Positions 10,345-27,440 of a stretch of 35,699 nt of DNA are shown one piece after another (the first letter of the stretch is position 1; each line of letters begins with the position of its first letter). This DNA is from Bacteroidota bacterium. GTDB taxonomy: Bacteria; Bacteroidota; Bacteroidia; Bacteroidales; VadinHA17. The translations under genes and the position numbers were made by a program. The stretch is taken from the NCBI GenBank assembly GCA_011042635.1, contig DQWH01000193.1, forward strand, positions 1 through 35,699. Direction: 5' to 3'. A model generated the notes under the pieces. The model was not told where the DNA came from, searched no databases, and worked only from the letters and a program-made list of their open reading frames with translations.

Positions 10345-10375
10345 TTTTTTCAGCCAATGAAAAGTTCTGTAACAT

Positions 10376-11902: not shown

Positions 11903-11930
11903 GCTGGTTCTGATCAACGAAATCTCACAC

Positions 11931-11962
11931 GGGGAGGTGGGGGGAAGAATCCCCCTCTTTTA
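11931..11962 (+). terminator. G/C hairpin with T-tract just before the ECF sigma start codon
   Basis: A G-run (11939-11944) pairs with CCCCC (11951-11955) around the loop AAGAAT, extended below a small bulge by GAG/CTC-type pairs, and is followed by TTTT. It ends six bases before the ATG at 11968. It can be read as the terminator of the lipoprotein gene, or as an attenuator governing entry into the sigma operon; no other promoter is evident between it and the ATG. Confidence 0.6.
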
Positions 11963-11967
11963 AAACC

Positions 11968-12555
11968 ATGGATGACCGGGAACTTGTGAAGGAGGTGCTA
12001 GCTGGTAACCAGCGGGCCATGAGGGATTTGATCGTCAAATACCAGGACCTGGTAGTGAACACCTGTTATCAGGTACTCCATAACCAGCATGATGCTGAAG
12101 ATGTGGCTCAGGAAGTATTTCTGACTGCCTATCATTCCATGGCCGCCCTGCGAAATGAGAAATGCCTTTCGTTCTGGCTGTACCGGATCGCGCTAAATAA
12201 ATCATTGAATTATTCCAGAAAGCACAGGATCTTCAAGAAGGGAATCCGCTTTGACCCGCCCTGTGAGGGTCATTATCATGAACCGGAAACGCAGGTGCCG
12301 GACAGGGAAGATTCCCCTCATGAAATAATGGAGAATAATGAAAAAATGGAAGTGATCTCACTCATGATCGATACTCTTCCTGCCAGGCAAAGGAAGGCTT
12401 TTATCTTACATCATATTGAACGTTTGTCATACCGGGAAATTGCCGAGGTGTTGAACCTGTCGCTCCCAACGGTGGAATCACTGATTTTCAGAGCCAGATC
12501 AACACTGAAAACCAAGTGCCGGGCTTACTATGAATTCGGGAATAACACGGATTAA
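11968..12555 (+). CDS. ECF-type RNA polymerase sigma factor
   Basis: A 195-residue extracytoplasmic-function sigma factor that directs RNA polymerase to a small set of promoters. Region 2 spans about residues 15-90 with HDAEDVAQEVFLTAYHSMAA (core binding, -10 recognition); region 4 spans about 130-185 with LPARQRKAFILHHIERLSYR and a helix-turn-helix EIAEVLNLSLPTVESLIFRA. There is no region 1 or 3. It is followed after 11 bases by a membrane-anchored sensor and then a short single-TM protein, so its activity is most likely held at the membrane and released by an envelope signal. CnrH of Cupriavidus (about 190 residues) has the same size and type of neighbours. It most likely drives this operon, though the autoregulated promoter was not identified. 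Confidence 0.93.
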   Translation: MDDRELVKEVLAGNQRAMRDLIVKYQDLVVNTCYQVLHNQHDAEDVAQEVFLTAYHSMAALRNEKCLSFWLYRIALNKSLNYSRKHRIFKKGIRFDPPCEGHYHEPETQVPDREDSPHEIMENNEKMEVISLMIDTLPARQRKAFILHHIERLSYREIAEVLNLSLPTVESLIFRARSTLKTKCRAYYEFGNNTD

Positions 12556-12566
12556 ACCTAACAATT

Positions 12567-13097
12567 ATGGATCAGATCAAAGTAAACCGTTCCATCCGCT
12601 GGTTGAATTATCTGCTTTTGATCATCAACCTGACGGCTTTATGTACCCTGATCTTTTTCAGGCCTCACCATGAGCCTGATAGGGAAAACCTTCAGGTCAC
12701 TTCCCTGGAATTTTTAAGGGAAGAGCTGGGTTTGACCGGTGAACAGTATCAGGAGGTGGTACGGCTGGACGAAACCACCTACCGGACATACCATCTTATT
12801 ATCGACCTCCTCTGCGAAGCAAATATCGAATTGCTTGAAGAACTGGCAAAAGAAACGCCCGATCAGGAAGTACTGGACAGGCTAACACGGAAAATCGGCA
12901 ATCTGAACACTTCACTGAAAAAAGCCACGATCAGGCATTTTGACCATATCCGGAGCATCTGTAACGAAGAGCAAAAGGCCAGGCTGATAGGGATTTTCAA
13001 GGAGATCATGCAGCTGGAAGAACAATGCGAAATTTGCAACCGCAAAGAGTGTCCCAGGAAAACCAGACTGGAAAATTTAGGAAAAATGGAAGAGTGA
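12567..13097 (+). CDS. Membrane-anchored Spy/CnrX-like periplasmic (metal) sensor
   Basis: A 176-residue protein with one N-terminal membrane anchor (residues 12-31) and a helical periplasmic domain. The domain has LGLTGEQYQEVVRLDETTYR (residues 54-73) and IRHFDHIRSICNEEQKARL (122-140), matching the helical hairpin with LTxxQ-type repeats in Spy, CpxP, ZraP and CnrX. Possible metal ligands are H34, H35, H76, C83, H124, H127 and C132; the C-terminus adds a cysteine cluster C154-x2-C157-x4-C162 not found in Spy. Position between an ECF sigma gene and a small TM protein matches CnrX, the Ni/Co sensor of the CnrYXH trio. Metal binding and identity are inferred. A chaperone role like Spy is an alternative. 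Confidence 0.75.
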   Translation: MDQIKVNRSIRWLNYLLLIINLTALCTLIFFRPHHEPDRENLQVTSLEFLREELGLTGEQYQEVVRLDETTYRTYHLIIDLLCEANIELLEELAKETPDQEVLDRLTRKIGNLNTSLKKATIRHFDHIRSICNEEQKARLIGIFKEIMQLEEQCEICNRKECPRKTRLENLGKMEE

Positions 13098-13188
13098 GCA
13101 CAAGTTTTTCATCGCAGTCCTGTCTTATTCTTTAAACCTGTCTCCCGGACAGATACATCCGGCAGGTAAAAACCGAAAAAAGGAAACC

Positions 13189-13524
13189 ATGGCATCAGGT
13201 AATTCTTCAAAGGATTTCGATCTTCCGGTTCCCCGGAAAATCCGGGCATCAGCCGGATTTGCCGACCGAGTGATGGCCAGAATTGAAGAAGAAAATTCTT
13301 CCAGAGTGGTGCATCTTCCCCTGGTTACCAGAATTACAAGTATTGCATCACTGGTTCTGCTGTGTGTGGCTATGGGAATACTGATCGGTTACCACAGCGG
13401 TTTTACCCCCCATTTCACAGAGGAAACGGCAAATAAACAAACCCTGGAACAGTTCCGGGATCGTTACCACCTGTATAGTGTAAGAAATGAAGACCTCATG
13501 ATGATGAAAATGTTTGCAAACTGA
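13189..13524 (+). CDS. Short single-TM protein, candidate anti-sigma factor
   Basis: A 111-residue protein with a cytoplasmic N-terminal segment of about 45 residues (including IRASAGFADRVMARIEEENS), one membrane segment at about 48-68 (TSIASLVLLCVAMGILIGYH) and a short periplasmic tail. This size and topology match the minimal anti-sigma factors such as CnrY, which wrap the sigma factor with a short N-terminal helix pair. It lacks the zinc-binding HxxxCxxC motif of ZAS anti-sigmas, as CnrY does. It sits two genes after the ECF sigma, 91 bases after the sensor and 28 before the polyferredoxin. The assignment rests on topology and context rather than on clear homology. Confidence 0.55.
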   Translation: MASGNSSKDFDLPVPRKIRASAGFADRVMARIEEENSSRVVHLPLVTRITSIASLVLLCVAMGILIGYHSGFTPHFTEETANKQTLEQFRDRYHLYSVRNEDLMMMKMFAN

Positions 13525-13552
13525 ATATTATCTTTTTTCTAACAGAATCCCG

Positions 13553-15511
13553 ATGAAAGTGTTCAATTCCCGAAAAAACTGGTACAAAGATTTCTTCCAG
13601 ATTGCCATTCTTCTTATACTTGTTTTCATAGGAATCCGCCTCTGGCTGGATAAAACCTATGCTCCTGATTTTGAAGCCTATTGCCCGCTGGGCGGATTGC
13701 AGGCACTGGGAAGCTACCTTACCCGTGGCTCCCTGGCCTGTACCATGACCAGCGCCCAGATCATGATGGGCATTATTCTGATAGTGGGGATCATTTTCTT
13801 CAGCAAACTGTTCTGCGGCTATATCTGCCCCCTGGGAACAGTTGGCGAATGGCTTGGAAAACTGGGCGACAAGTTCAAGATCAGATCTACCATCCAGGGA
13901 TGGCCTGACAAAGCCCTGCGTTTGCTGAAATACGGTTTGCTTTTTGCCACTTTTTATTTTACCCTGCAGAGCAGTGAGTTGTTCTGCAAGAAATTCGACC
14001 CATATTACGCCGTCACATCCGGCTTTGATACCGATGTGGAATTACTCTGGGCCATCGGGGCCATCCTGGTTCTGGTTCTGGGCTCTGTTTTCCTGAGGCT
14101 TTTCTGGTGTAAATACCTGTGCCCATTAGGCGCTGCTTCAAATATTTTCAAATTCTGGTGGTGGTTTGCCGGGATACTGGGCATATACATCGTGATCATC
14201 CTGCTGGGAACCAGCCTGCACTGGGTGTGGCCTCTGGCCGTTATTACAGCCGGAGGGTTTATTCTGGAAGTGTGGCGCATGAAAAAAGCCGGTCCCGGGC
14301 TGGTACATATCACCCGCAATAAGGAAACCTGCATCGATTGCAATCTTTGCTCCAAAAATTGTCCCCAGGGCATTGATGTGGCCTTGGTGGAAAAAGTAGA
14401 GCATGTTGATTGCAACCTCTGCGGTGACTGCATTACAGCCTGTCCGGAAACAAACACCCTGCAGATCAACAGCAGAAACATGCGCTGGCTACCTGCCACC
14501 GTGCTGACTGTTCTCATTGTGGCAGGAATCATTCTGGGAACCCGGTGGGAACTACCTACCATTGATGAAAAATGGGGAACAAAAGAGCAAATTGAGCAGG
14601 CTGGAATATTTACGCAGGAAGGGCTGAAAAACATCAAGTGCTTCGGAAGTGCAAGCGCTTTTGCAAATCAGATGCGCACAGTAAAAGGGATTTACGGAGT
14701 TGCTGCCTATGTTGGAAACCACTCGGTAAAAATCTACTATGACAAAAACGTATTTGAGGATGAGGAAGAAATACAAAAACTTTTGTTCACACCCGCAAAG
14801 AGGGTGATCAGGCCCATCGGTCAGGAAGTAAACGAGCTGGAAAAATACACTACCACAGTAGATAAGTTTTTCGATCCCATGGATGTGTATTACCTCCAGC
14901 AATTGATGCTGCAGAAATCAAAAGCCGTTGCTTTCGAAACCAAGTACGCCTGCCCCGTAATCATTCATTTCTACTATCCGGCCGGGGAAGCCCCCTCAGT
15001 CGAAGAATTGGAAGAGATTATTGAAAGCCGCACACTGACCTACACAGCTAGCGGTCAGGAATTTCATGTAAAACTGAATTATGAGCTGATGAGTTTCGAT
15101 GAAAATCCTGTGATACTCAGCCGAACGGATTACATCAGAGCCATGTATACCCCGACGGTAATGAAGTTCAACAAATTCTCCTCCTTCACGGAAGACGTGC
15201 TGAGGCAGTACCGGATCTCCATGGAAGAAAACAGGGCGCTGAGAAGCAGGTATTCTTACCTGATCAGCCACCTTTCAAACGATGAAGGAGTGGTGGCCTT
15301 TGAAACCTGGCTCGATTCGCTGGGCACAGAAATGGCCAGTATCGTATTTGTAGATACCCTTACCACCGCCGGGCAGATTGATGCCGCTCTCCGTACCGAT
15401 TCACTCAGGGTTACCTACAGCGGCGGGCGCACCGGCGTGGTGGAAAATCCTTTCACTTTCAGCGGCAGTGGAGAAACAGCCGATTACCCTGATAACAACT
15501 TAAATCATTAA
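13553..15511 (+). CDS. NapH/NosR-like polyferredoxin membrane protein with HMA-like tail
   Basis: A 652-residue inner-membrane iron-sulfur protein that should pass electrons across or along the membrane. Membrane segments lie at about 13-31, 68-87, 122-140, 164-183, 203-221 and 312-330. CPLGG at 44-48, C88xxxCP and C186xxxCP are the NapH/NosR/CcoG loop motifs. Two [4Fe-4S] ferredoxin sites follow on the cytoplasmic side: C260, C263, C266, C270 and C287, C290, C293, C297. Beyond the last membrane segment, residues 356-415 (GLKNIKCFGSASAFANQM, then YGVAAYVGNHSVKIYYD) resemble an HMA metal-binding fold with a single cysteine (C363) instead of CxxC, and a further domain carries C467. The ATG at 13553 avoids overlap with the upstream gene. 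It is followed by an ABC transporter, as NosR is linked to NosFY in nitrous-oxide reductase loci, but no NosZ or NosD is present. Confidence 0.85.
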   Translation: MKVFNSRKNWYKDFFQIAILLILVFIGIRLWLDKTYAPDFEAYCPLGGLQALGSYLTRGSLACTMTSAQIMMGIILIVGIIFFSKLFCGYICPLGTVGEWLGKLGDKFKIRSTIQGWPDKALRLLKYGLLFATFYFTLQSSELFCKKFDPYYAVTSGFDTDVELLWAIGAILVLVLGSVFLRLFWCKYLCPLGAASNIFKFWWWFAGILGIYIVIILLGTSLHWVWPLAVITAGGFILEVWRMKKAGPGLVHITRNKETCIDCNLCSKNCPQGIDVALVEKVEHVDCNLCGDCITACPETNTLQINSRNMRWLPATVLTVLIVAGIILGTRWELPTIDEKWGTKEQIEQAGIFTQEGLKNIKCFGSASAFANQMRTVKGIYGVAAYVGNHSVKIYYDKNVFEDEEEIQKLLFTPAKRVIRPIGQEVNELEKYTTTVDKFFDPMDVYYLQQLMLQKSKAVAFETKYACPVIIHFYYPAGEAPSVEELEEIIESRTLTYTASGQEFHVKLNYELMSFDENPVILSRTDYIRAMYTPTVMKFNKFSSFTEDVLRQYRISMEENRALRSRYSYLISHLSNDEGVVAFETWLDSLGTEMASIVFVDTLTTAGQIDAALRTDSLRVTYSGGRTGVVENPFTFSGSGETADYPDNNLNH

Positions 15512-15557
15512 TTCAATAACCATTCCCTTGAGGGGGAATCACAACCAGAGAAAAGGT

Positions 15558-16442
15558 ATGTATGCCATTGAATGTAAGAACCTGACCCATTATTACGGTA
15601 AAAAGCTCGTTTACGAGAATCTGAATTTTACCGTGGAAGAAGGAAAAATTCTGGGTTTGCTGGGGAAAAACGGTGCGGGAAAATCCACCACCATCAATAT
15701 TCTGAACGGATTCCTCCATCCCACGGCAGGAGAATGTCTCATTTACGGAGAAAATTCCCAGCATCTGACACCCGCCACGAAGGAAAGAATAGGGTTCCTC
15801 ATCGAAGGACATATACAGTATTCCTTCATGAATATCCACCAGATTGAAAAATTCTATTCCGGGATTTACTCCCGTTGGAACAGCGAACCATACTGGGAGC
15901 TGATGTCGAAGCTCAAGGTTACTCCCAGGCAGAAGATATCGAGCATGTCGTGCGGGCAGCGCTCACAGGTGGCCCTGGGCCTGATCCTGGCACAGGACCC
16001 CGACCTGCTGATCCTCGACGACTTTTCCATGGGGCTGGACCCCGGATACCGGCGGCTGTTCATCGATTATCTGAGAGATTACGCCAAAACCAATCAAAAA
16101 ACCATATTCCTCACCTCGCACATCATCCAGGATATGGAAAGGCTGATCGACGATGTGCTGATCATGGATTATAACAGAATCCTGACACAGCAGCCGGTTA
16201 ACGAGTTCATGAAACGTTTCAAACAGTTCGTGATCCGGCTTAAAAACCCGAATGCCGATTTCCCGAAAAATTCGCTGTCCCTGAACATTGAGAGAACAAA
16301 AGACCGGGTGGAATTTTATACCTACGGCACCCTGGAGGAATTAAAGCAGTTCCTGTCGGAACATGCCGTGGAATATGTCTCCGTTGAACAACAACCTCTG
16401 ACCCTGGAAGATGCCTTTATCGGGCTTACCGGAAAGTATTAA
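15558..16442 (+). CDS. ABC transporter ATP-binding protein
   Basis: A 294-residue ATPase of a two-component export-type ABC system (compare NosF or CcmA-like families). Walker A is GKNGAGKST (36-44), the signature is MSCGQRSQVALG (C132 replaces the first G of LSGGQ), Walker B is LLILDD with D155 where the catalytic glutamate normally is, and the switch histidine is H188 in TSHII. The E-to-D change usually slows but need not abolish hydrolysis. The C-terminal 90 residues form a regulatory extension. A TTG start upstream at 15528 is in frame, but the ATG at 15558 directly begins the first strand (MYAIECKNLTHYYG). The permease begins five bases after its stop. It is most likely part of the same operon as the polyferredoxin. 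Confidence 0.92.
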   Translation: MYAIECKNLTHYYGKKLVYENLNFTVEEGKILGLLGKNGAGKSTTINILNGFLHPTAGECLIYGENSQHLTPATKERIGFLIEGHIQYSFMNIHQIEKFYSGIYSRWNSEPYWELMSKLKVTPRQKISSMSCGQRSQVALGLILAQDPDLLILDDFSMGLDPGYRRLFIDYLRDYAKTNQKTIFLTSHIIQDMERLIDDVLIMDYNRILTQQPVNEFMKRFKQFVIRLKNPNADFPKNSLSLNIERTKDRVEFYTYGTLEELKQFLSEHAVEYVSVEQQPLTLEDAFIGLTGKY

Positions 16443-16447
16443 CGAAA

Positions 16448-17134
16448 ATGCAAATTGATTATACCATGTGGAAAGCAATTATTTACAAGGAATGGATCAA
16501 GATCAGATGGACGGCCGCCATCTTCCTGGGGCTCGGGATTCTGGTGCTGATCAACATTCTGCTGCGCATCAGGCATGACATTCTGTTTGTGGACGCAACC
16601 AATTACTGGTACAATGTGCTGTTCAGGGGATACAACTACGCCTCCATGCTCAAATTTCTCCCGTTTCTTGCCGGTCTGGGCATTTCGGCAGCCCAGTACT
16701 TCCCGGAAACGGTCAACCGCAGAATCAAGCTTACCTTCCATCTGCCCGTAAAAGAAAGCAGGGTACTGATGGGTATGCATCTGTTCGGTACCGGAAGCCT
16801 GCTGCTGATCTATGCCGTATGGCTAATTCTTTTCGTTATTATCAGTGCCATTTATTTCCCTCCCGAGATCATGCAGTCAACCCTGATCACGATCATCCCC
16901 TGGTTCATGGGAGGTCTGGCCACCTATTTCATGGCCGCTTTGATTTTGCTTGAGCCGGTGTGGTTGTTCCGGGTACTTTATGCCCTGGTAGCTTATGGTT
17001 TCATTACCATGTTCTACCAGAGGGCGGGTCTGGCAGCTTACCTGCCTGCTCTTCCGGAACTGGCCGTTTTAACAGTTTTATCGAGTATTGTGGTTTTATT
17101 CTCAGGTTACCGTTTCAGAAAAGGAGAAATGTAA
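16448..17134 (+). CDS. ABC transporter permease (ABC-2-like)
   Basis: A 228-residue integral membrane protein with six segments: about 18-37, 60-80, 110-130, 142-162, 170-190 and 200-220. It starts MQIDYTMWKAIIYKEWIKIRW, an amphipathic lead-in typical of ABC-2 type permeases such as NosY. There is no recognisable substrate-binding motif. It sits five bases after the ATPase and its stop overlaps the next start (TAATG), so the two-gene transporter and the DUF4857-like gene are translationally coupled. Substrate unknown; in NosFY the partner moves a sulfur species for copper-cluster assembly, which is a suggestive but unproven comparison. Confidence 0.82.
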   Translation: MQIDYTMWKAIIYKEWIKIRWTAAIFLGLGILVLINILLRIRHDILFVDATNYWYNVLFRGYNYASMLKFLPFLAGLGISAAQYFPETVNRRIKLTFHLPVKESRVLMGMHLFGTGSLLLIYAVWLILFVIISAIYFPPEIMQSTLITIIPWFMGGLATYFMAALILLEPVWLFRVLYALVAYGFITMFYQRAGLAAYLPALPELAVLTVLSSIVVLFSGYRFRKGEM

Positions 17135-18375
17135 TGATGGTTAAGATTAGCAGATACATACTGGTGTTTATCGGCATACTGGCTGCTTCCGTAGCCCTGC
17201 CCGAACTGTACTGGACCATTTTCGAACAGGTTCCCGGCACTCCCAATGTATATTACAGTTGCACCCTGAACGATTTTATCATGCTCCGCCCGGGTGACAA
17301 CGGCGTAACACGTCAGGACACAAAGGGGAACACCTATACACTGGATGAGTTTGAACAACATCTTCCCATGATGTTTTTCAGGCAGCTCATGACCGACGGC
17401 ACCATGCCCGACTCCATTCATGGAGTGGAAATGGATCCCACGGCCATCAACAAGGCCAGGTCGTATTTCCGATATACCACGAAAGACATGCTTTCACCCA
17501 GGCCCAAACTGTGGCCTATGTTCGAATCGGAAAGCGGCCGGGTAAACCTCGCCATGCCCGATGATTATTTCCGGATCACCCGGAAAATGGAATTCATTGA
17601 TGCAGCCACCAATGAAGTGAACCGGGGAAAAAGCGAAAAATTCACCCGTGCTCTGGAAGAACAGGATTTTCTTTTCCCGGCCCGGCTCATTGCGGGAATC
17701 CCGACTACACGGAAAAGCTGTGACGAGGGGTATTTTGTGAAAGACAGCCGGGGAGATCTGTTCCATGTGAAAATGATCAAAGGAGAACCTTACGTGGCCA
17801 GGATCGATATTCCCGATCCGATGGACATACTCCACATCGAATGCGTGGACCTCCGCAGCAAGGAATATTACTGCTACCTGTTTACCAGGCACAGCGGAGT
17901 GTTTGTCGTGATGGAAGGAGTATACCATCTGCAACGGATCCCGCTGGAAGGATTCAATCCTTTCGAACACGAGCTGAAGATCAACTGCGATATGTTCAAC
18001 AAAACTTTTGCCATGGAAGGGGAAGATTTCCTCAAGGTAGTGGCTGTGGATGATATGTACGAGGTGGTGGATACCTACGAAGAAACATGGGATGGGATTT
18101 TCAAACGTCCTGACGGCAAAATGTTTGCTTCCATTTTCCCCTTCGAGCTGGAACTGAGGATTGCCAAAACCGGTTATGTGGATTTCTACTTCACAAGGTC
18201 GCCTGGCTTTGCCTGGCTTATCGTGAACCTGATCTTCGTGGGTCTGGCTGTATGGCTTATTTTGAGAAGAAGAGGCAACCTGATGAAAAACATCCCCGAC
18301 CTCCTCATTGTTCTGGTAACGGGAGTTTTCGGATTCATTGGAACCCAGATATTTCCTAACAAATTCTATGACTAA
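17134..18375 (+). CDS. DUF4857-like membrane-anchored protein
   Basis: A 413-residue protein with an N-terminal membrane segment (residues 8-26, ILVFIGILAASVALPELYWT), a periplasmic domain of about 310 residues, and two C-terminal membrane segments at about 355-374 and 386-405. The periplasmic part has repeated beta-rich motifs (DSRGDLFHVKMIKGEPYVA; LFTRHSGVFVVMEGVYHLQR). I believe it belongs to DUF4857, known from Bacteroidota next to ABC transporter genes, but that rests on memory of context. The start ATG at 17134 overlaps the permease stop, and the TonB receptor follows after 15 bases. It may be the periplasmic partner of the ABC pair, linking it to outer-membrane components. No enzyme motif is visible. 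Confidence 0.65.
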   Translation: MMVKISRYILVFIGILAASVALPELYWTIFEQVPGTPNVYYSCTLNDFIMLRPGDNGVTRQDTKGNTYTLDEFEQHLPMMFFRQLMTDGTMPDSIHGVEMDPTAINKARSYFRYTTKDMLSPRPKLWPMFESESGRVNLAMPDDYFRITRKMEFIDAATNEVNRGKSEKFTRALEEQDFLFPARLIAGIPTTRKSCDEGYFVKDSRGDLFHVKMIKGEPYVARIDIPDPMDILHIECVDLRSKEYYCYLFTRHSGVFVVMEGVYHLQRIPLEGFNPFEHELKINCDMFNKTFAMEGEDFLKVVAVDDMYEVVDTYEETWDGIFKRPDGKMFASIFPFELELRIAKTGYVDFYFTRSPGFAWLIVNLIFVGLAVWLILRRRGNLMKNIPDLLIVLVTGVFGFIGTQIFPNKFYD

Positions 18376-18390
18376 CCAAATTCACCTGCT

Positions 18391-21255
18391 GTGAAAAGGT
18401 TTCTTCTCATTCTTCTGATATGCTGGCCGGCTCTGGCATCCTATTCCCAGGAAAAATACGATGTGGCCGGTCAGGTAATCAATGCGGCCGACGATAAGGT
18501 GATAGAAATGGTGGCGGTCGGCATCAAGGAGCTGAACCTCTGGACTGCCTCCGACATGGAGGGGAAGTTTCTTCTGAAGAACATCCCGCCGGGGAAATAC
18601 ACCATGCAGGCCAGTTGCCTGGGATTCGAGATCTATGAACAATCCTTCACCGTGCCTCTTGATTCGCGAAGGTTTACCATCCGCATGGAACCCACCACTC
18701 TTGCCCTGGAAGAAGTGGTGGTTCTTGCCAAAGAAGGGAAGAAGTTGGGAAGCACTTCCTCCATCAGCCAGTCGGCCCTGGAACATGTGCAGCCGGTCGA
18801 CCTATCGGATGTGATGCAACTCCTGCCCGGACAGGTCAGCATTAACCCCGATCTTTCCGATCCCAAACAGTTGTCGATCCGCGATATCAGTACCCAGGGC
18901 GATCCCATGGCCGGGCTGGGAACCCTGCTGATGATCGACGGGGCCCCGGTATCAAACGACGCAAATCTGCAAACCCTGGGTACGGCCAAGGCCAGTCTGG
19001 GAACAGTGACTTCCCATTTTGCCTCCACCGCCACCGGAGGTGCCGATGTGCGGCAGATCCCCGTTGACAACATCGAATCCATTGAAGTAGTCAGGGGAAT
19101 TGCCAGCGCCGAACAGGGAGATATACTCAGCGGAGTGGTTAAAGTAAACCTGAAAAAGGGGAAAACACCCTGGATTGGAAAGATCAAGATCGATCCCAAT
19201 ATCAAGCAGGCATACGTGGGAAAGGGGTTCAACCTTCCCGGTTCGGGCGGAGCCATCAACGTGGATGTGGATTTTGCCCGTTCCCTGGATGATATCCGCT
19301 TCCCCTACAAAACCTACAACCGGCTTACCGGAAGCATTGCCTACAGCAACACCTTCCTGAAACAATGGAAACCTCTTACCTTGAGCCTGACAGGAAGATA
19401 TACCGACAGCCGCGATACCGAAGAAACCGATCCCGACATGCTGGATTATGAAAAATTCGAATCCCACGACAGGAACCTTAGCCTGGTTCTTTCCGGTAAA
19501 TGGGCTTTGAATACGACCCTGTTAACCAATCTCAATTACAACATATCGGGAAACATACAGCACCAAATTGGAAGGGAAATTGACCAGGAAAGCCTGAACG
19601 GACCCATGCCACAACCCGTTTCAAAAATAGCGGGTATATTCGAGGCACCGTACCTGCCCAGCCGGTACGTCAGCGATGTCACCATCGACGGGCGTCCCTT
19701 CTATTTCAACAGCAAGATCACCGGGACCAAAACCTTCCACATAGGCGAAGGAATGAACAATCTGAGAGGCGGGGTGGAATACAAAATATACGGCAATAAC
19801 GGGGACGGAAGGGTTTATGATATGGCCTTCCCGCCCAATCCAACCAGTTCAGGCGATGCCCGGCCGCGCTCATACAAGGAGATCCCCTCCCTGGGTCAGC
19901 TGTCTATGTTCCTGGAAGAAGATCTCAGCCTGCCTCTGGGACCTACCAAGCTGGATCTGCAGGCAGGGATCCGGTTCACCAATGTTCAGCCGGAGAGCAT
20001 TTTCCGTTCGGCCGAAAATACCACCATGCTCGACCCTCGGTTTAACGTAAAATACAATCTGCTCGACCGGAAGGCAAAAGGGATCAATAAATTCGACCTG
20101 CGTTTCGGGTACGGCGTGTTCTCCAAAGCACCCACCTTGTTGCATTACTATCCCGACAAAGCCTATACCGACCGGATGAGTTTCAACTATTACGATCCCC
20201 CGGGATCCCTCCTCCTCCTTACAACCCATGTGGTGGAAGATACGCGGAATTATGAGCTGAAGCCTGCCTATAACAGAAAGATGGAGGCGGGTTTTGACCT
20301 GACGGTGGCCGGAGTGGAGTTGCTGGTTACCGCTTTCCGTGAAAAAATGACCGACGGATTCTCCTTCCACAGAAATTACGAATTGTTTATTTACGATAAA
20401 TACGAAACGCTTTCGGAAACGGGATTGAATCCTTATTATATGCCCGGGGAAGGGGTATTCTATATCGATCCTGTTACAGGCGACCCCTTAGCGGTACCCC
20501 GTTCGAACGACACCATCTGGATATCCCACACTTATCCGGAAAACACCGAACACACCACTAAAAAAGGCCTGGAATATACCCTCGATTTAGGTACACTGAA
20601 TGCGCTTAGAACTTCCCTTGTTCTGGACGGAGCTTATCTGTACGTAAAAAAACAGGATATGGCCGAATATTTGGAAAAACCCGTATCCACCTATCAGAAC
20701 AGACCCTATCCTCTTATTGGAGTTTATCCGGCCGGAAGCGGAAAGATCAATCAGCGGTTCAACACCAACATACGGACGGTAACCCATATCCGGGAGCTGA
20801 GGATGATCGTGACCCTCACCACGCAGATCATCTGGTTCGAAAAAACAAGGTATATACACGAGGATGAAAACGGCAATCCCCTGGTTTACACTGATATTCC
20901 TGTGGATAATGTATATGAAGACCGTACCCAGGTCAAATACATTATTCCCAGGGGATATTATGACCTGACAGGAACCTATCATGAATTCAACGTGGAAGAA
21001 GCCACGGAAAAACCTTACAGCGATCTGAAAGACCGCACGGGGAATCCTTACTACTTTGTGGAAAGAACCTACCCGCCCATCTACCAGATCAATCTCAGGA
21101 TGACCAAGGAACTGTCAGACGGGGCCAGCATTTCCTTCTATGTGAACAACATCACCAATTACAAGCCTCTGCAAAAGATCGGCGGAATGATCAATTTATA
21201 TACCCGCAGAAACCAGTCAATATATTTCGGCGCCGAGCTGAGGCTTAAATTTTAG
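18391..21255 (+). CDS. TonB-dependent outer-membrane receptor with carboxypeptidase-like N-domain
   Basis: A 954-residue outer-membrane barrel that imports a ligand using TonB energy. The order is: signal peptide (1-20, ending ALASYSQ), a carboxypeptidase-D-like regulatory domain (24-105, KYDVAGQVINAADDKVIEMV and IPPGKYTMQASCLGF), a plug domain (about 115-250, DVMQLLPGQVSINPD, LLMIDGAPVSND, NIESIEVVRGIASAEQGD), then the barrel, ending with aromatic IYFGAELRLKF. The start is a GTG. There is no SusD-like partner, so glycan uptake is less likely; a lipoprotein of DUF4876 type takes that place. No FecA-type signalling (STN) domain precedes the plug. With ECF sigma and polyferredoxin genes in the same operon, a metal complex, haem-like compound or other cofactor is the best guess for ligand. 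Confidence 0.92.
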   Translation: MKRFLLILLICWPALASYSQEKYDVAGQVINAADDKVIEMVAVGIKELNLWTASDMEGKFLLKNIPPGKYTMQASCLGFEIYEQSFTVPLDSRRFTIRMEPTTLALEEVVVLAKEGKKLGSTSSISQSALEHVQPVDLSDVMQLLPGQVSINPDLSDPKQLSIRDISTQGDPMAGLGTLLMIDGAPVSNDANLQTLGTAKASLGTVTSHFASTATGGADVRQIPVDNIESIEVVRGIASAEQGDILSGVVKVNLKKGKTPWIGKIKIDPNIKQAYVGKGFNLPGSGGAINVDVDFARSLDDIRFPYKTYNRLTGSIAYSNTFLKQWKPLTLSLTGRYTDSRDTEETDPDMLDYEKFESHDRNLSLVLSGKWALNTTLLTNLNYNISGNIQHQIGREIDQESLNGPMPQPVSKIAGIFEAPYLPSRYVSDVTIDGRPFYFNSKITGTKTFHIGEGMNNLRGGVEYKIYGNNGDGRVYDMAFPPNPTSSGDARPRSYKEIPSLGQLSMFLEEDLSLPLGPTKLDLQAGIRFTNVQPESIFRSAENTTMLDPRFNVKYNLLDRKAKGINKFDLRFGYGVFSKAPTLLHYYPDKAYTDRMSFNYYDPPGSLLLLTTHVVEDTRNYELKPAYNRKMEAGFDLTVAGVELLVTAFREKMTDGFSFHRNYELFIYDKYETLSETGLNPYYMPGEGVFYIDPVTGDPLAVPRSNDTIWISHTYPENTEHTTKKGLEYTLDLGTLNALRTSLVLDGAYLYVKKQDMAEYLEKPVSTYQNRPYPLIGVYPAGSGKINQRFNTNIRTVTHIRELRMIVTLTTQIIWFEKTRYIHEDENGNPLVYTDIPVDNVYEDRTQVKYIIPRGYYDLTGTYHEFNVEEATEKPYSDLKDRTGNPYYFVERTYPPIYQINLRMTKELSDGASISFYVNNITNYKPLQKIGGMINLYTRRNQSIYFGAELRLKF

Positions 21256-21282
21256 TACCTCACCCTCAAAATTCTATTTATT

Positions 21283-22485
21283 ATGAAACAAACATTTGTA
21301 ATTATCATCGCACTGATCGCAGGCATGTTCGTTACATCATGCGAAAAAGACGAAGGAGCCAAACTGTACGATGTGACAGTTATGGTGAACTTCCCTGAAG
21401 GATACACGGTAACCGACATGTCGGGTGTAACCGTAAAATGTCTGAACACAGTATCCTCCAAGGAGGAAACCGCCACCACAGACGCTTCCGGAACGGTGGT
21501 TTTCAAAGTAGAAGCCGGAACCTACACTTTTTCGGCTACCATGACCACGGAGGAATTCGTATTCAACGGGATTACCGAAAACCAGCAGGTGGATGCCCAG
21601 AATACCGAATTTGAAATTGATCTGGTGGCTTCGGCCATCGGAGGCGGGCTGGTGTTCAAGGAGATCTATTTTACCGGCTCAAGAACACCGGAAGATAAGT
21701 CCTATTATGCCGACCAGTTTCATGAGATCTACAACAACAGCGACGAGGTGATCTACCTCGACGGCCTTTGTATTGGAGTGTTACAGCCCTCCAGTTCATC
21801 TCCCTCCGACTGGGTGGATGACCAGGGGAACCTTCTGGATGTGTTGCCCATTACGTACCATACCTGGATGTGGCCCGGTACCGGCGAGGATTATCCCCTG
21901 CAGCCCCGTACCAGCGTGGTACTGGCACAGGACGGGATAGACCACCAGACCGATCCTGCCGGAAACCCCAACTCACCTGTCAACCTCGGCAATGCCGACT
22001 GGGAAACCTATGTGGAGTGGTCCGACAAGGATACCGATTCCCCCGGTGTTCCCAATCTGAACTGCATTTACACCACCACCACCTCGATGTACGACTGGCT
22101 GCATCCTGTTTTCGGTGGTGCCATTGTGATCTTCCGCCTCCCCACCGGACTGGATTATGACAGCTTTGTCAATAATCCCGAAAACTTCATGACCCGCCCG
22201 GGAAGCACCAGCACCAAAGAGTACCTGATGGTGCACAAAGACTGGGTGATAGATGCCGTGGAAATCGTCCGGGTGGAAGAAGACAAGCGCTATAAGCGCC
22301 TGCCCATTGAACTGGATGCCGGCTACACATTCTGCAGCGGAACGTATATTTCCAAGAGCATCCGCAGGAAAGTGGACAAGATCATCGACGGAAAAGTCAT
22401 TTACAAGGACACCAACAACTCCAGTGAAGACTTCCTGGGTGATCAGGATCCCACACCTTTTGTTCATCCTTCAACGGTTGACTAA
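21283..22485 (+). CDS. DUF4876-like surface lipoprotein
   Basis: A 400-residue predicted lipoprotein. The signal peptide ends in MFVTSC with lipidation at Cys20, followed by the acidic EKDEGAK typical of surface-exported Bacteroidota lipoproteins. Residues 25-115 form a beta-sandwich of carboxypeptidase-regulatory or Ig type (TTDASGTVVFKVEAGTYTFS). The main domain then has LVFKEIYFTGSRTPEDKSYY and FHEIYNNSDEVIYLDGLCIG, which I associate with DUF4876 and which resembles a lamin-tail-type fold. It sits 27 bases after the TonB receptor and probably caps it on the cell surface, as SusD or other lipoproteins do. Ligand unknown. A strong terminator-like hairpin follows its stop. Confidence 0.72.
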   Translation: MKQTFVIIIALIAGMFVTSCEKDEGAKLYDVTVMVNFPEGYTVTDMSGVTVKCLNTVSSKEETATTDASGTVVFKVEAGTYTFSATMTTEEFVFNGITENQQVDAQNTEFEIDLVASAIGGGLVFKEIYFTGSRTPEDKSYYADQFHEIYNNSDEVIYLDGLCIGVLQPSSSSPSDWVDDQGNLLDVLPITYHTWMWPGTGEDYPLQPRTSVVLAQDGIDHQTDPAGNPNSPVNLGNADWETYVEWSDKDTDSPGVPNLNCIYTTTTSMYDWLHPVFGGAIVIFRLPTGLDYDSFVNNPENFMTRPGSTSTKEYLMVHKDWVIDAVEIVRVEEDKRYKRLPIELDAGYTFCSGTYISKSIRRKVDKIIDGKVIYKDTNNSSEDFLGDQDPTPFVHPSTVD

Positions 22486-22492
22486 TACCGAA

Positions 22493-22538
22493 AATGAAGA
22501 GGTCGGGCTCATGGCCAGGCCTCTTCATTCTTCTTTTT
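22493..22538 (+). terminator. Terminator-like hairpin between the lipoprotein and the DUF6850-like gene
   Basis: A perfect 10-bp stem (AATGAAGAGG at 22493-22502 with CCTCTTCATT at 22520-22529) with a 17-base loop is followed by CTTCTTTTT. It sits inside a gene run that otherwise looks continuous, so it may lower expression of the last two genes rather than end the operon. Confidence 0.75.
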
Positions 22539-22557
22539 CAACACAATCCAGACGGGA

Positions 22558-24126
22558 ATGAAAAAAATCCTTTTTCTGAGTTGCCTTATATGCCTGACAG
22601 CGGCTCTTGAAGCCGCTATGTTGCAACCCGGCGATTCTCTTAGCTACGGCAAATCCCGGCTATTCTATTTCTATCTTCCAGTAATAAACCCCTGGTCGCA
22701 GGGAAACAATCCGGCCGGGAACTATTTCTACTCGCTGAACAACATCAGCCGGATCAGCACCGGGTATGATTTTACCAGGAATCACAACCGTAGTGCCCAG
22801 GAACCCGGCGAAACAGGAAAATACCATATCGGTACCGAAGGGATCAAACGCATCGGCAGGTTTGTATTCAATGGCAGCATCGGATACAATAACCTGCAGT
22901 ATAATGACCTGTTGTACAATAACACCATGTCGTTCGATAACCGGAACTTGTATGCCATCGGCGATACGGTACCGGGAAAACAGAAACAGGAAGGATTCCA
23001 CATGTGGACCGGTGTTGCTTTCCCGCTGGGGAAAAACCTGGTCGGTGGCTTCGGCGCCCGCTATGAAAACTCCCTTTCCGGGAAAATGAAAGATCCCAGA
23101 AACCTGAACAAGATATCTTCCCTCAAACTCACACCCGGTCTTGTCTATCAGAGAAATAATCTGTCTTTTGGAATCAGCGGTGGTCCCCTGTGGGAAAACA
23201 ACGAGCTGACAGTCAGTGTGATGGAAAATGCAAAACACAACATTTTCCAGTTTCTCGGAATGGGATATTTTGAAGCTATCCGGAATATCTATTCCTACAG
23301 CGCCAGATACGACAAGAGCGGATACCAGGCCGACCTCCAGGTACACCTTCAAAAACCCGGCTGGTCATTCTTTAACAACCTGGGCTACATCAGCACCACG
23401 GAAGAACTCCGGGAAGGGTCCGGCTACCGCCTTCTCGATGGCATTACCCATGTTACCAACATGCACTACACCGGCGACCTGCTCATTCATGGTGAAAAAG
23501 TGAAGCATCTGGTCCGTGCCGGAGTGCAATATGAAAAAATCAAAGGAACGGAAGTGGAACAGCACTCCGTGACCGTCAACGACGGATATGTGAGCTGGGA
23601 TTCCATCGTCACCGACCGGTGGGTGGATGACAAGCACATCATCAGCAATTATGCGGGGAACCTGTCCTATACCCTTCTCGGTATGCGACAGAACAAACCT
23701 GTTCATTACAGGCTCTGCGCCCGGGTATCCGGGAAATACTATACCTCCAAACATTACCCCGTGGAAAGCTACGGATATTATGAGGTGTTCAGCCTCACGG
23801 GCCTTCTCGAATACCAGCATTATTTCACCTTTAAAAAATTGAATCTGGATCCCGCAATTAGACTGGGACTGCGTCATTCCCTTTCCAATGCTCTCGAATA
23901 CCAGGTGGAGGAAAAATTTTTTGCAGCCGTTCCCGAAGCCGATTTTATGAACCTGGCGGCAGATTATTATACGGGACATGCCTCCCTGCAGTTTTCAGGC
24001 GGGTTGTCGGGCCTTTTCCGGGAATGGTTCGTCGATGCAAATGGAACATATTATTATTTTCCTGATCTGCCTGCCGGATCAAATTTCAACCTCGCTATTC
24101 AACTCAGCGTGGGAGTTATTTTTTAA
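22558..24126 (+). CDS. DUF6850-like outer-membrane beta-barrel protein
   Basis: A 522-residue exported protein. Residues 1-20 are a signal peptide (MKKILFLSCLICLTAALEAA). The rest alternates short polar and aromatic strands (FNGSIGYNNLQYNDLLYNNT; LVGGFGARYENSLSGKM; AGNLSYTLLG) and ends in a barrel-closing strand NLAIQLSVGVIF with terminal Phe, the outer-membrane insertion signal. I believe this corresponds to DUF6850, seen with DUF4876 and TonB receptor genes in Bacteroidales; the name is from memory. It begins 72 bases after the lipoprotein stop, behind a hairpin, and is followed ten bases later by the C25-like gene. It may be a second channel or a structural partner of the receptor. Confidence 0.65.
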   Translation: MKKILFLSCLICLTAALEAAMLQPGDSLSYGKSRLFYFYLPVINPWSQGNNPAGNYFYSLNNISRISTGYDFTRNHNRSAQEPGETGKYHIGTEGIKRIGRFVFNGSIGYNNLQYNDLLYNNTMSFDNRNLYAIGDTVPGKQKQEGFHMWTGVAFPLGKNLVGGFGARYENSLSGKMKDPRNLNKISSLKLTPGLVYQRNNLSFGISGGPLWENNELTVSVMENAKHNIFQFLGMGYFEAIRNIYSYSARYDKSGYQADLQVHLQKPGWSFFNNLGYISTTEELREGSGYRLLDGITHVTNMHYTGDLLIHGEKVKHLVRAGVQYEKIKGTEVEQHSVTVNDGYVSWDSIVTDRWVDDKHIISNYAGNLSYTLLGMRQNKPVHYRLCARVSGKYYTSKHYPVESYGYYEVFSLTGLLEYQHYFTFKKLNLDPAIRLGLRHSLSNALEYQVEEKFFAAVPEADFMNLAADYYTGHASLQFSGGLSGLFREWFVDANGTYYYFPDLPAGSNFNLAIQLSVGVIF

Positions 24127-24136
24127 TGATTCAACT

Positions 24137-26287
24137 ATGAAAAAACTGTTTTACTTCTTGTTGTTATGCCTTCCGGGAACCATCACCGGCCAGCATACCC
24201 GGTTTGCGATTGTGGTAGATCCAGACCATTACGATAAGGCGAGGTATGAAATTGAAGAATACCGAACCGTGCTGGAAGAAGAAGGCCTTCAGTCACTCGT
24301 CGTGGTGGACCGCTGGCATCATCCCGATTCCATACGGGAGGTACTCAGGAATTTATACCTGGAAAACAAAGCCTTTGAAGGAGCTGTTTTTATCGGAGAT
24401 ATTCCCATACCCATGCTGAGGGATGCACAGCATATGACCTCTGCCTTCAAAATGGACCAGAAAAGATATCCCTGGAACCGTTCTTCGGTTGCTTCCGACA
24501 GGTTCTATGAAGATTTTGACCTCCGTTTTCATTTTCTGAAACAGGACACCGCCGCACCCTCCTACTTCTATTACAGCCTGGCCTATGATTCCCCCCAGGT
24601 ACTCAGGCCCGATATCTATTCGGGAAGGATCCGTATACCCGACGATCCCGACGGGACCAAACTTCGGGCATACCTGAAAAAGGTGGTGGCAGCCCACCGG
24701 GAAACTAACCGGGCCGATGAACTTCTGTTTTTTGCCGGCCACGGATACAACTCCGAATCATGGATTGCCCGTATGGACGAAAAAGTGGCCCTGCTGCAGC
24801 AGTTCCCCTGGCTGAATAAACAGGAAAACAGCCTTGAATACATTGATCATACCTTTGACACCCATATCAAATACCGCCTTCTTTCCCAGCTAGCCAGGGA
24901 AGACCTGGATCTGTCCATCCTTCACCATCATGGCGGAGCCACGGCCCAGTATCTGAACGGGACACCCATGGTAAGCGGAGTGACACAGTCCATTGAAAAT
25001 ATCAAGCAGTACCTGCGGTCCAAACTGCGGGATGCAGCCGACAGAGGCCGGGATCTGGACAAAACCATGAATCAATACATGGACACTTACCTGGTTCCCA
25101 GAGCGTGGTTTGACAACAGCCTGGATCCCGAACAGATGGTGGAAGATTCCATTTTCTGGAACAGTATGGACATCTCGGCCGAGGAGCTGGAAAATTACCG
25201 ATCCAATGCCCGATTCATTGTTTTTGATGCCTGCTTCAACGGTTCCTTTCACCAGCCCGATTACCTCTCGGCACGGTATGTCTTCGGCAACGGAAAAACA
25301 ATTGTAGCCCAGGCCAATACAGTCAATGTTATTCAGGACAAATTCCCCGATGAAATGATCGGCCTGCTGGGTTACGGCCTGCGCGCCGGAGCCTGGAACC
25401 AGTATGTGTGTTACCTGGAAACCCACATTATTGGCGATCCCACTTTCCGGTTTGCTTCAATAGATGAGAAACTCCACGCAGACGACCTGCTGTCTGTCAG
25501 GGGAAATAACAGAAAAGTGCTGAAATTTACCGGTTCAGATCATCCCGACATACGCGCCTGGGCATGGAGAACCCTGTATGAAAACGGGTATCCCGGCCTT
25601 GCTCCTGTGCTGAAATCCGCCTTTAGGCAATCACCCTTCGGCACGGAAAGAATGGAGATCCTGAAAATTTTGTCCGAAATCCGTGATGACAATTTTATCC
25701 AGGTGCTGCAAGCCGCCATGAGCGATTCCTACGAACTGATCCGCCGCCAGGCAGCCATTTTTGCCTTGAAATCGGGCGACCCCAGGCTGGCTTGCTTCCT
25801 CATCCGGGCCGTTACCGATCCGAACTGTTCCAAAAGAGTACGTTACCAGCTCAAGGAAGCTTTGGGATTTTTTCCGAAAGAGATCCTGCTGACTGCCCTT
25901 GAAAACCTGAGCCTGCCCGATGACAATACCGGGTACAGTAAACGGAGAAAGGAAGAAGTAAGGGAATGGGTGGAAAACGCCTGGTCGTCGTACGAAAGTT
26001 ACATGAAAGACATTGTCTCTTCTGAAAGCAACAGGAAAGACAGGGCATTTGCCATAAGGGCGTTTCGCAATAAACCATTTCACCAGGGAATACCCCAGCT
26101 TACTTCATTCCTGTTTGAATGTGAAGACGAAGATACACAGATCATGCTGCTGGAAGCCCTGGGATGGTACCGGTACAGTTACCGGCGGGATGAAATTATT
26201 GATGCCTGTCATCGGATCATACAATCGGATAAATACAATGGGAGGGTGAAAGAAGAAGCAGAGCGCACGGTTCGCAGATTATCCTAG
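24137..26287 (+). CDS. Gingipain-type (C25) caspase-fold protein with C-terminal HEAT-like repeats
   Basis: A 716-residue exported protein. A signal peptide (1-18) precedes a caspase-like alpha/beta domain at about 20-440. The putative catalytic histidine is H265 in ILHHHGGATAQY and the cysteine is C366 in FIVFDACFNGSF, the same order and surroundings as the His-Gly and Ala-Cys-x-Asn-Gly motifs of gingipains; IIGDPTFRF near 432-440 matches the conserved GDPS/T end of that fold. Residues 465-716 are helical repeats of HEAT type (REVREWVENAW, DSYELIRRQAAIFALKSGDP, EDTQIMLLEALGWYR). There is no type IX sorting tail, so it is probably periplasmic or retained at the envelope. A longer open frame begins at 23978, inside the previous gene; the ATG at 24137 starts the signal peptide. 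A terminator follows its stop. Confidence 0.78.
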   Translation: MKKLFYFLLLCLPGTITGQHTRFAIVVDPDHYDKARYEIEEYRTVLEEEGLQSLVVVDRWHHPDSIREVLRNLYLENKAFEGAVFIGDIPIPMLRDAQHMTSAFKMDQKRYPWNRSSVASDRFYEDFDLRFHFLKQDTAAPSYFYYSLAYDSPQVLRPDIYSGRIRIPDDPDGTKLRAYLKKVVAAHRETNRADELLFFAGHGYNSESWIARMDEKVALLQQFPWLNKQENSLEYIDHTFDTHIKYRLLSQLAREDLDLSILHHHGGATAQYLNGTPMVSGVTQSIENIKQYLRSKLRDAADRGRDLDKTMNQYMDTYLVPRAWFDNSLDPEQMVEDSIFWNSMDISAEELENYRSNARFIVFDACFNGSFHQPDYLSARYVFGNGKTIVAQANTVNVIQDKFPDEMIGLLGYGLRAGAWNQYVCYLETHIIGDPTFRFASIDEKLHADDLLSVRGNNRKVLKFTGSDHPDIRAWAWRTLYENGYPGLAPVLKSAFRQSPFGTERMEILKILSEIRDDNFIQVLQAAMSDSYELIRRQAAIFALKSGDPRLACFLIRAVTDPNCSKRVRYQLKEALGFFPKEILLTALENLSLPDDNTGYSKRRKEEVREWVENAWSSYESYMKDIVSSESNRKDRAFAIRAFRNKPFHQGIPQLTSFLFECEDEDTQIMLLEALGWYRYSYRRDEIIDACHRIIQSDKYNGRVKEEAERTVRRLS

Positions 26288-26314
26288 GCCTGGGAGGCTT
26301 TGTTTCTGAATCAG

Positions 26315-26347
26315 GGGGCAGTCAATGTACTGCCCCTTCCTTTTATT
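26315..26347 (+). terminator. Rho-independent terminator of the metal/redox cluster
   Basis: GGGGCAGT at 26315-26322 pairs with ACTGCCCC at 26329-26336 around CAATGT, followed by TTCCTTTTATT. It is 28 bases past the C25-like gene's stop and abuts the stop of the convergent butyrate kinase gene. Confidence 0.85.
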
Positions 26348-27440
26348 CATATACCTGCGGCTGAATCTCCCCTTTCAGCAGCAGCATTCCGTTATGGGCC
26401 ATGGCTTCCAGCTCATCATCCCCCGGATACAGGTGAACAGGCGCTATCTTCGATACTCTTCCCACCAGGTAATTCATCAGGGTGCGGCTGTGGGCCAGGT
26501 TCCCTGTAATCAGAACCGCATCGGGCTTTTCAGGAAATGCCATGCTCATAGCCCCTGCACTCTGGGCCACCTGATAGGCCATGGCTTCCATGATGAACCG
26601 GGCATGATCGTCTCCCGCATCAATGCGTTGCTCCACCTCATAGCCGTTGTTGGTACCCAGGTAGGCTTTGAGACCTCCCTCACCCCGTATCATGGCCAGC
26701 ATTTGTTCCCGGGTATATTTGCCGCTGAAACACATTCTGATCACATCGCCCATCGGAAGAGTCCCACTGCAGATAGGCGAAAACGGCCCGCCCCCATCAT
26801 ACCCCTGGGTGGTATCGATCACCCGCCCAAGGTGATGCGCTCCGATCGAAATGGCCCGGCCCAGACTGATCACGATCAGGTTCATTTCCTCATAGGCTCG
26901 GCCTACCGAACGGGCATGGCGCCTGGCCACATATTTCTGGTTCAGGGCGTGAAATACAGACCGCCTTTGAATAAGGGGATGGCCCGATATTCTGGATATC
27001 TCATCGAATTCATCCATTACCACCGGGTCGGAAATGAACGGACGGGCATTTTTCAGCTTCTGAGAAACCGCATAAGCCACCAGTCCCCCCAGATTCAGCA
27101 CATCCATGCCATACTCCCCGCAGCTCAAATCCTCACGCAATTTATCGTTCACCTCATACATCCCCGATTTTACCGGCTTGCACAACCCGCCCCTGCCGAT
27201 AACCAGGCGGATCTCATCCAGGGCGATCTCATTGTCATGTAACTCCTTCATGATGGCTTCCTTCCGGAAGTCGGTCTGATCACATATCCCGGAAAATTTT
27301 TCCAGTTCTCCGGGTTCATGCCTGATCCTTTTCAGAAAAAGGATCTTACCGTACCGGTACAGGGCAATCTTGGTAGCCAGATCCCTGGGATTAATGGTAA
27401 GGATAATGGCCTTGCTGTAGTGGTTTTTTATTTCACTCAT
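26343..27440 (-). CDS. buk: Butyrate kinase-like protein (acetokinase family)
   Basis: A 365-residue member of the ASKHA acetate/butyrate kinase family, which converts butyryl phosphate and ADP to butyrate and ATP. Family landmarks include LVIGRGGLCKPVKSGMYEVN, NLGGLVAYAVS, VVMDEFDEISRISGHPLIQR, ISLGRAISIGAHHLGRVID and GGPFSPICSGTLPMGDV. The N-terminal phosphate motif, normally NPGSTSTK, reads NPRDLATK (residues 17-24), so the glycine and both hydroxyl residues are replaced. ILITGN near the end is intact in form (VLITGNLAHS). Three starts are possible: TTG 27461, ATG 27446 and ATG 27440; I use the last. A -7-like TAAATTTG (27466 down to 27459) lies right upstream, leaving a very short leader. 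No phosphotransbutyrylase gene is next to it. Activity is uncertain because of the altered motif. Confidence 0.88.
   Translation of the reverse strand: MSEIKNHYSKAIILTINPRDLATKIALYRYGKILFLKRIRHEPGELEKFSGICDQTDFRKEAIMKELHDNEIALDEIRLVIGRGGLCKPVKSGMYEVNDKLREDLSCGEYGMDVLNLGGLVAYAVSQKLKNARPFISDPVVMDEFDEISRISGHPLIQRRSVFHALNQKYVARRHARSVGRAYEEMNLIVISLGRAISIGAHHLGRVIDTTQGYDGGGPFSPICSGTLPMGDVIRMCFSGKYTREQMLAMIRGEGGLKAYLGTNNGYEVEQRIDAGDDHARFIMEAMAYQVAQSAGAMSMAFPEKPDAVLITGNLAHSRTLMNYLVGRVSKIAPVHLYPGDDELEAMAHNGMLLLKGEIQPQVYE

Follow-up and report, generated by a model that had tools for sequence, protein, structure and literature searches.

A conserved Bacteroidota gene cluster encoding a NapH-type polyferredoxin: a candidate operon for importing a chelated metal through a TonB-dependent receptor and freeing it by reduction

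Introduction

What kind of system places a sigma factor, a membrane-bound iron-sulfur protein, an ATP-binding cassette (ABC) transporter and a TonB-dependent outer-membrane receptor in one run of genes? This question is raised by a locus on contig DQWH01000193.1 of a Bacteroidota bacterium (assembly GCA_011042635.1; 2.64 Mb, 80.7% complete). This one contig was analyzed as a single stretch of 35,699 nucleotides, hereafter the window. A preliminary description, made from the letters alone, had proposed that the gene run serves to import a metal or cofactor and to handle it reductively. This remains the best reading, given the alternation of PepSY and polyferredoxin proteins described below and an iron-induced PepSY-type locus of Bacteroides thetaiotaomicron; no metal can be assigned from the sequence. 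We propose, with a probability of about 0.5, that the run is an operon whose products take up a chelated metal, most likely iron, in a TonB-dependent way and free it by reduction at the inner membrane, with ABC-dependent handling.

Several known systems bear on this proposal. BT3625-33 of B. thetaiotaomicron is upregulated 37-128-fold on iron depletion, and the DUF4876/TonB loci BT1933-39 and Porphyromonas gingivalis (P. gingivalis) PG1019-22 are likewise induced (PMC10434189). PepSY-like proteins have been tied to the reduction of iron outside the cytosol and to its assimilation (PMC8238504), ferrioxamine use depends on one of them, HiuB (PMC12424826), and reductases acting on ferric iron or siderophores in the periplasm are found among them. 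Pyoverdine uptake involves a TonB receptor, the inner-membrane reductase FpvG, periplasmic iron reduction and the ABC transporter FpvDE (PMC6206403).

Materials and methods

Two sets of loci were compared: 61 DUF4857 loci, mapped in the order and in related groups, and a set of 80 polyferredoxin loci fetched from genomes with species or strain names. Open reading frames (ORFs) were called in each locus and then assigned with iterative profiles. Fetched comparison loci carry L-numbers, and W denotes the window.

Results and discussion

Conservation of the gene run

The ORF map of the window places all eleven genes of the preliminary description on the plus strand, with the two close junctions it had pointed out: a 5-base gap (16443-16447) before the permease gene and a TAATG overlap in which the DUF4857 ATG lies at 17134. 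Pfam agrees with the names given to the extracytoplasmic function (ECF) sigma factor and the ABC ATPase, DUF4857, TonB receptor, DUF4876, DUF6850 and HEAT proteins. A conserved upstream member was absent from that gene list. The SM lipoprotein gene (11462-11902, plus strand) lies before the sigma gene in 13/13 trio loci of the close group and on the same strand in 36/80 polyferredoxin loci; its product of ~146 aa has no Pfam family and carries two conserved Cys (C63 and C109, numbered from the 11462 start) and a conserved Trp.

The full 12-gene order, SM-sigma-Spy-TM-polyferredoxin-ABC-permease-DUF4857-TonB-DUF4876-DUF6850-HEAT (TM, transmembrane), was also found in L077, L078, L079, L080, L081, L083, L085 and L091. 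L094 has the identical order with a split polyferredoxin, and L082, L084, L086 and L088 match the window as far as their contigs extend. Between genera, proteins of the trio and the polyferredoxin can share as little as 22-61% identity. The values for the window and L075 are 22% (TM protein), 31% (DUF6850), 44% (sensor), 49% (sigma factor), 61% (polyferredoxin) and 76% (ABC ATPase); thus, the gene order has survived much divergence. Among 393 genomes of the order, DUF4857 was detected over the cut-off in 53 and DUF4876 in 75, with both in 51 (Fisher p = 7e-43), and DUF4876 lay within 15 kb of DUF4857 in 46/61 DUF4857 loci. The TonB receptor, DUF4876 and DUF6850 form an outer-membrane unit, and the ABC ATPase, permease and DUF4857 an inner-membrane unit; the two vary in relative order and stay together. 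Across genomes, then, the homologs are clustered rather than scattered, and the run is a genuine conserved cluster, far beyond chance. The combination had been called unusual; it is not confined to this genome, as its DUF4857/DUF4876/DUF6850 core is already known as an iron-stimulon locus. The polyferredoxin electron module is the distinctive part.

Two variants of the surroundings were seen. In L053, L069 and L070, the permease-DUF4857 pair is duplicated in tandem (one ABC ATPase, two permease/DUF4857 copies) beside SusC/SusD-like genes. In L046 (15351-16564), peroxiredoxin and ferritin-like genes directly follow the TonB-DUF4876-DUF6850 unit; judged by their families, these neighbors appear to tie that core to iron and oxidative stress, and we count them in favor of iron uptake.

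Alternation of PepSY-TM protein and polyferredoxin

Among the 61 DUF4857 loci, a PepSY-TM protein was found in 20 and a same-strand polyferredoxin in 12 (W, L050, L051, L054, L057, L062, L063, L065, L073 and L074-L076); none had both. Of the twelve, L050 was counted through L157, and L051, L062 and L073 through L110, L108 and L101, with which they were paired by the length of their contigs. The PepSY_TM protein at these loci has 180-204 aa (PF16357, 4.9e-15) and usually adjoins a lipoprotein termed C1lip; C1lip goes with PepSY and SM with the polyferredoxin. No PepSY-TM protein was detected in the window with Pfam, and the polyferredoxin stands in its place. That the polyferredoxin occupies the PepSY position in otherwise equivalent loci suggests that it serves as the reducing step, and supports release of the imported metal by reduction. 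The linkage of polyferredoxin and DUF4857 extends to Ignavibacteriota (L140, L143, L145), Fidelibacterota (L144, L147) and Calditrichota (L120). Outside the DUF4857 loci, L123 is the single case with both electron carriers.

The C1lip family, exemplified by L023 (13739-14341, minus strand, beside PepSY), has a conserved CTHxCKHG motif and no Pfam match; it may handle metal in the periplasm as a counterpart of SM. In L071, a fusion of FMN_bind (PF04205), Fer4_5 and flavin reductase (10331-12196, minus strand) lies on the strand opposite the DUF4857 locus and, by its domains, represents a flavinylation-type alternative to the polyferredoxin.

The window carries DUF4857, DUF4876 and DUF6850 above the Pfam cut-off together with a TonB receptor and an ABC pair in one run, the content of a BT3625-33-type locus. 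BT3625-BT3633, matched here by annotation rather than alignment, likewise combines DUF4857, a hypothetical protein, an ABC ATPase, DUF4876 proteins and a TonB receptor. It differs from the window in having PepSY-TM genes and a fimbrillin-annotated gene; its listed genes include neither a polyferredoxin nor an ECF trio nor a HEAT protein. BT1933-39 and PG1019-22 share DUF4876 and the TonB receptor with the window, and BT1933-39 also a HEAT protein, whereas no ABC/DUF4857 or polyferredoxin is listed for them. No description of the polyferredoxin version of the locus was found in a limited literature search.

The polyferredoxin

The NapH-type polyferredoxin (PFD; ORF 13514-15511, plus strand, better start 13550) is a multi-TM protein with a Fer4_5 match (PF12801, 6.3e-11); the NapH model matches it at 4.1e-14, far below the cut-off. 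In 81 sequences, two CX3CP motifs, both ferredoxin-type [4Fe-4S] motifs, C57, C76, C158 and the tail cysteine C376 are nearly invariant (Cys kept in 78-79/81), and further conserved C/H residues follow the HMA-like site that contains C376. If the protein is oriented like NapH/NosR, its ferredoxin domain would face the cytoplasm and its tail the periplasm. The tail had been described as HMA-like. Such a domain is not called in the window protein; a weak match occurs at that place in homologs (PF00403, E = 0.004), with one Cys rather than CxxC. The tail cysteine designated C480 is Glu in Ignavibacteriota and Fidelibacterota; a correlation of this residue with DUF4857 context was considered and is not clean, as the residue follows phylogeny.

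NapH-like and PepSY-like extracytosolic electron-transfer systems (Meheust 2021, PMC8238504) resemble the present case in using a Fer4_5 membrane protein and PepSY as alternative carriers. They are defined by a flavinylated FMN-binding partner, and the window run has none: no PF04205 FMN-binding domain was detected with Pfam in the polyferredoxin or any other protein of the run.

The regulatory trio

Three genes on the plus strand encode the ECF sigma-70 factor (11968-12555; PF08281, 1.2e-18; PF04542, 6.9e-15), a membrane-anchored Spy/CnrX-like sensor (12567-13097) and a short single-TM protein (13189-13524). The last occupies the CnrY position and, by its position and topology, is a probable anti-sigma factor; a homolog in this slot (L105) has weak zf-HC2/DUF3379 matches, as in anti-sigma factors. 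The Metal_resist/Spy match of the sensor is sub-threshold (1.3e-5, 25.8 bits vs. a cut-off of 29.2).

CnrYXH-like control had been suggested. The architecture agrees with that of CnrYXH of C. metallidurans, where an ECF sigma factor, an anchored helical periplasmic sensor and a small TM protein are likewise encoded by three adjacent genes; the CnrX metal ligands are not conserved. C83, C132, C154, C157 and C162 of the sensor are kept in 30-31/31 homologs, and no His or Met is conserved across these 31 sequences. CnrX signaling requires Met123 (PMC7689651). CnrX-type Co/Ni sensing was rejected on this residue pattern; the sensor more likely detects thiol redox state or a soft metal than Co/Ni. 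The window also differs from CnrYXH in that no CnrCBA/RND (resistance-nodulation-division) pump gene lies near the trio. The trio is optional, being missing beside SM-polyferredoxin in L096-L098, L100, L101, L103, L107 and L112.

DUF4857 and the transport proteins

The ABC ATPase (15528-16442; PF00005, 1.1e-22), the permease-like membrane protein (16448-17134) and the DUF4857 protein (17134-18375; PF16149, 2.7e-86) are encoded in succession on the plus strand. The permease has no named family and belongs to a conserved cluster (C0) of 52 homologs adjoining ABC ATPase/DUF4857. The AlphaFold2 model of DUF4857 (mean pLDDT 90.5) has one N-terminal TM helix, a beta-rich periplasmic domain and two C-terminal TM helices. 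A fold search with it returned WD40/propeller matches of Z ~8-9.5, graded as middling, with NosD not among the matches. DUF4857 is therefore modeled as a membrane-anchored, propeller-like protein adjoining the permease.

On the outer-membrane side, also on the plus strand, the run encodes the TonB-dependent receptor (18391-21255; CarboxypepD_reg and Plug), the DUF4876 lipoprotein (21283-22485; PF16215, 5.3e-52), the DUF6850 outer-membrane beta-barrel (22558-24126; PF21012, 3.1e-60) and a putative secreted clan-CD (C25-like) peptidase-HEAT protein (24131-26287, with the signal-peptide start at 24131; HEAT_2, 1.8e-14). The receptor was correctly described as lacking a SusD partner, none being present in the run; membership in SusCD was rejected on this ground and on the score of the TIGR04056 SusC model (60.9 bits vs. 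a cut-off of 368). For the DUF4876 family, an experimental structure is available (4q1z, E = 7.9e-67). Comparison of the DUF6850 and DUF4857 profiles with sequences of solved structures gave nothing significant, and a limited literature search found nothing on DUF6850 or on a DUF4857/DUF4876 mechanism. The C25 domain proposed for the HEAT protein has no Pfam C25 match, although clan-CD-like HG and DxCxNG motifs are kept in homologs, including that of Bacteroides finegoldii.

Other peptidase genes stand near related units. In B. finegoldii (L162, 9959-22308), TonB-DUF4876-DUF6850 precedes three HEAT/C25-like proteins, with ParA/DUF3408 and iron ABC genes close by; the sequence is recorded as a plasmid and is possibly mobile. 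In L116 (11966-19604), TonB-DUF4876-DUF6850-polyferredoxin precedes genes for two S46-type peptidases and an M16-like protease. In P. nigrescens (L164), the TonB-DUF4876-DUF6850 unit has feoB and an insulinase gene as neighbors.

Proposed mechanism

Starting from the observed gene content, conserved linkage, PepSY/polyferredoxin alternation and conserved residues, the following sequence of events is proposed. At the cell surface, the peptidase-HEAT protein, the DUF4876 lipoprotein and the DUF6850 barrel would assist in capturing a metal complex or setting it free, and the TonB receptor, judged by its family, would bring the complex into the periplasm. The NapH-type polyferredoxin would then accept electrons from a donor, either cytoplasmic or a quinol, conduct them across the membrane via its Fe-S clusters and reduce the metal; the SM lipoprotein and the HMA-like tail may be its periplasmic partners. 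Both assignments draw on the alternation with PepSY-TM. The ABC ATPase, permease and DUF4857 may move the released metal inward, energize its release or expel the empty chelator. Finally, the architecture of the ECF sigma factor, anti-sigma factor and Cys-type Spy-like sensor suggests that the operon would be induced by periplasmic metal or thiol state. Iron is the favored substrate by analogy with the BT loci. The Pseudomonas Fpv system (FpvA, FpvGHJK, FpvCDEF) offers a functional parallel, with its TonB receptor, inner-membrane reduction and ABC transporter; its own features are the reductase FpvG and two soluble binding proteins, FpvC/F, and it has no polyferredoxin.

Several observations weigh against this proposal. 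Neither a periplasmic binding protein of the FpvC/F kind nor a PepSY-type reductase was detected in the run with Pfam. Iron induction is known for the PepSY-type relatives only, and those were matched by annotation. The AlphaFold model of the polyferredoxin is too poor to place the tail (pLDDT 47). Since ~28/61 DUF4857 loci have neither PepSY nor polyferredoxin nearby, some of them ending at contig ends, a local electron module is not obligatory. The polyferredoxin, in turn, is a wider module than the DUF4857 locus: in the order sample, 7/47 polyferredoxin matches lay within 15 kb of DUF4857 and 40/47 did not, and the genome-level association was not significant (p = 0.15). An obligatory bond between the two is ruled out by these figures.

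On the polyferredoxin tree, DUF4857 context was clustered (16 changes vs. 26 when shuffled), without forming one clade. The eight top-scoring polyferredoxins were all in DUF4857 genomes, an outcome favored by a profile built from such loci.

A broader claim is put forward tentatively. The flavin-free NapH-type polyferredoxin with an HMA-like tail may represent a second class of metal-chelate reductase of the inner membrane, independent of the PepSY/FoxB type yet able to replace it in TonB uptake operons and vice versa, under a cysteine-based ECF sensor, in Bacteroidota and several related phyla. If so, an iron-stimulon locus strongly induced in gut and oral Bacteroidota, so far without assigned biochemistry, would gain a mechanism; anaerobes would use Fe-S and PepSY-type carriers interchangeably, as modules that release metal in the periplasm; and a role in common, amenable to testing, would fall to DUF4857, DUF4876 and DUF6850. 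The proposal can be tested in cultured carriers of the polyferredoxin version: Maribellus maritimus 5E3, where the set is complete, and Draconibacterium aestuarii Z1-6, where the fetched stretch ends within the set.

Alternative explanations

The closest alternative keeps the import-and-reduce design and replaces iron as the substrate by copper, a corrinoid or some other metal cofactor; Cu(II) or Co, reduced by the polyferredoxin, would be passed on via the HMA-like tail. The conserved tail Cys is consistent with this, although the HMA CxxC pair is down to that single residue. The five-Cys sensor fits soft metals, NosR/NosDFY is copper-related, and the trio often accompanies the polyferredoxin variant, while iron induction has been recorded for the PepSY-type relatives. 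Against these points, strong regulation by iron is on record for the nearest locus that has data (PMC10434189), and the fit of the receptor to corrinoid (BtuB) models does not exceed its fit to siderophore models. We consider a non-iron substrate rather unlikely.

Somewhat less probable again is a role in envelope repair or detoxification. The polyferredoxin would feed electrons to the repair of disulfide, sulfoxide or metal stress, the trio would be an envelope redox-stress switch, and the uptake genes would be co-regulated passengers replenishing Fe-S metal. The trio and SM track the polyferredoxin (27/29 trio loci have SM, and L139 has the trio without the core), the polyferredoxin adjoins an AcrB-type RND operon without the core in L087, L089, L093 and L115, and PG1019/1020 was also raised in an oxidative-stress data set. 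However, the polyferredoxin is directly linked to ABC-permease-DUF4857 without the trio or SM in L065, L140 and L143, and it is linked to the core in several phyla.

The association with RND genes takes two forms. In L078-L081, L083 and L085, an AcrB-type RND efflux operon and then a 97-aa protein (P-II-like by eye) lie directly upstream of SM-sigma-sensor-TM-polyferredoxin (~1.5-7.6 kb in L079). RND genes followed by the polyferredoxin without the uptake core were found in L087, L089, L090, L092, L093, L115 and L135. Seven polyferredoxins adjoining an AcrB-type RND operon fall within the window's clade of the tree, which suggests either a lost core or re-use.

Uptake of a peptide- or protein-bound nutrient is improbable. 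Surface peptidases would free a peptide or heme ligand that is imported by the receptor, DUF4876 and DUF6850, and metal reduction would be secondary. The C25-like HEAT protein of the window and the three in B. finegoldii, the S46 and M16-type peptidases of L116, the insulinase and feoB genes adjoining the module in P. nigrescens, and the hemin-regulated DUF4876 gene of P. gingivalis speak for it; the peptidase-HEAT protein is nevertheless the least conserved member (10/80 polyferredoxin loci) and is often replaced by T9SS (type IX secretion system) beta-propeller proteins.

A remnant of Nos-like copper-enzyme maturation or N2O respiration is very improbable: the partial parallel drawn earlier stands for the NapH/NosR-type Fe-S protein beside an ABC ATPase and permease and for nothing further, given that NosZ and NosD, as had been remarked, are missing among the families of the run, that no FMN-binding domain is present (which together rule out Nos membership), that DUF4857 looks propeller-like, and that the partners are outer-membrane uptake proteins.

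Boundaries and neighboring genes

No clear common promoter or operator element was found upstream of SM across the close group. Before SM lie a glyoxalase-like gene (9970-10344) and a gene for a DUF4405 cytochrome-b-like membrane protein (10376-11134), neither of which is beside the locus in other genera. A G-rich, terminator-like hairpin (11939-11955) stands between the SM and sigma genes of the window. A terminator dividing the two genes was considered and rejected, as the hairpin is not kept in relatives; attenuation specific to the window's genus is possible. A further, strong terminator-like hairpin (26313-26338, plus strand), with the top G+C-pair count in the hairpin scan, lies 3' of the last gene, and a butyrate/acetate-kinase family gene (26343-27461, minus strand) converges on it just beyond; the gene run therefore ends in the region of 26287.

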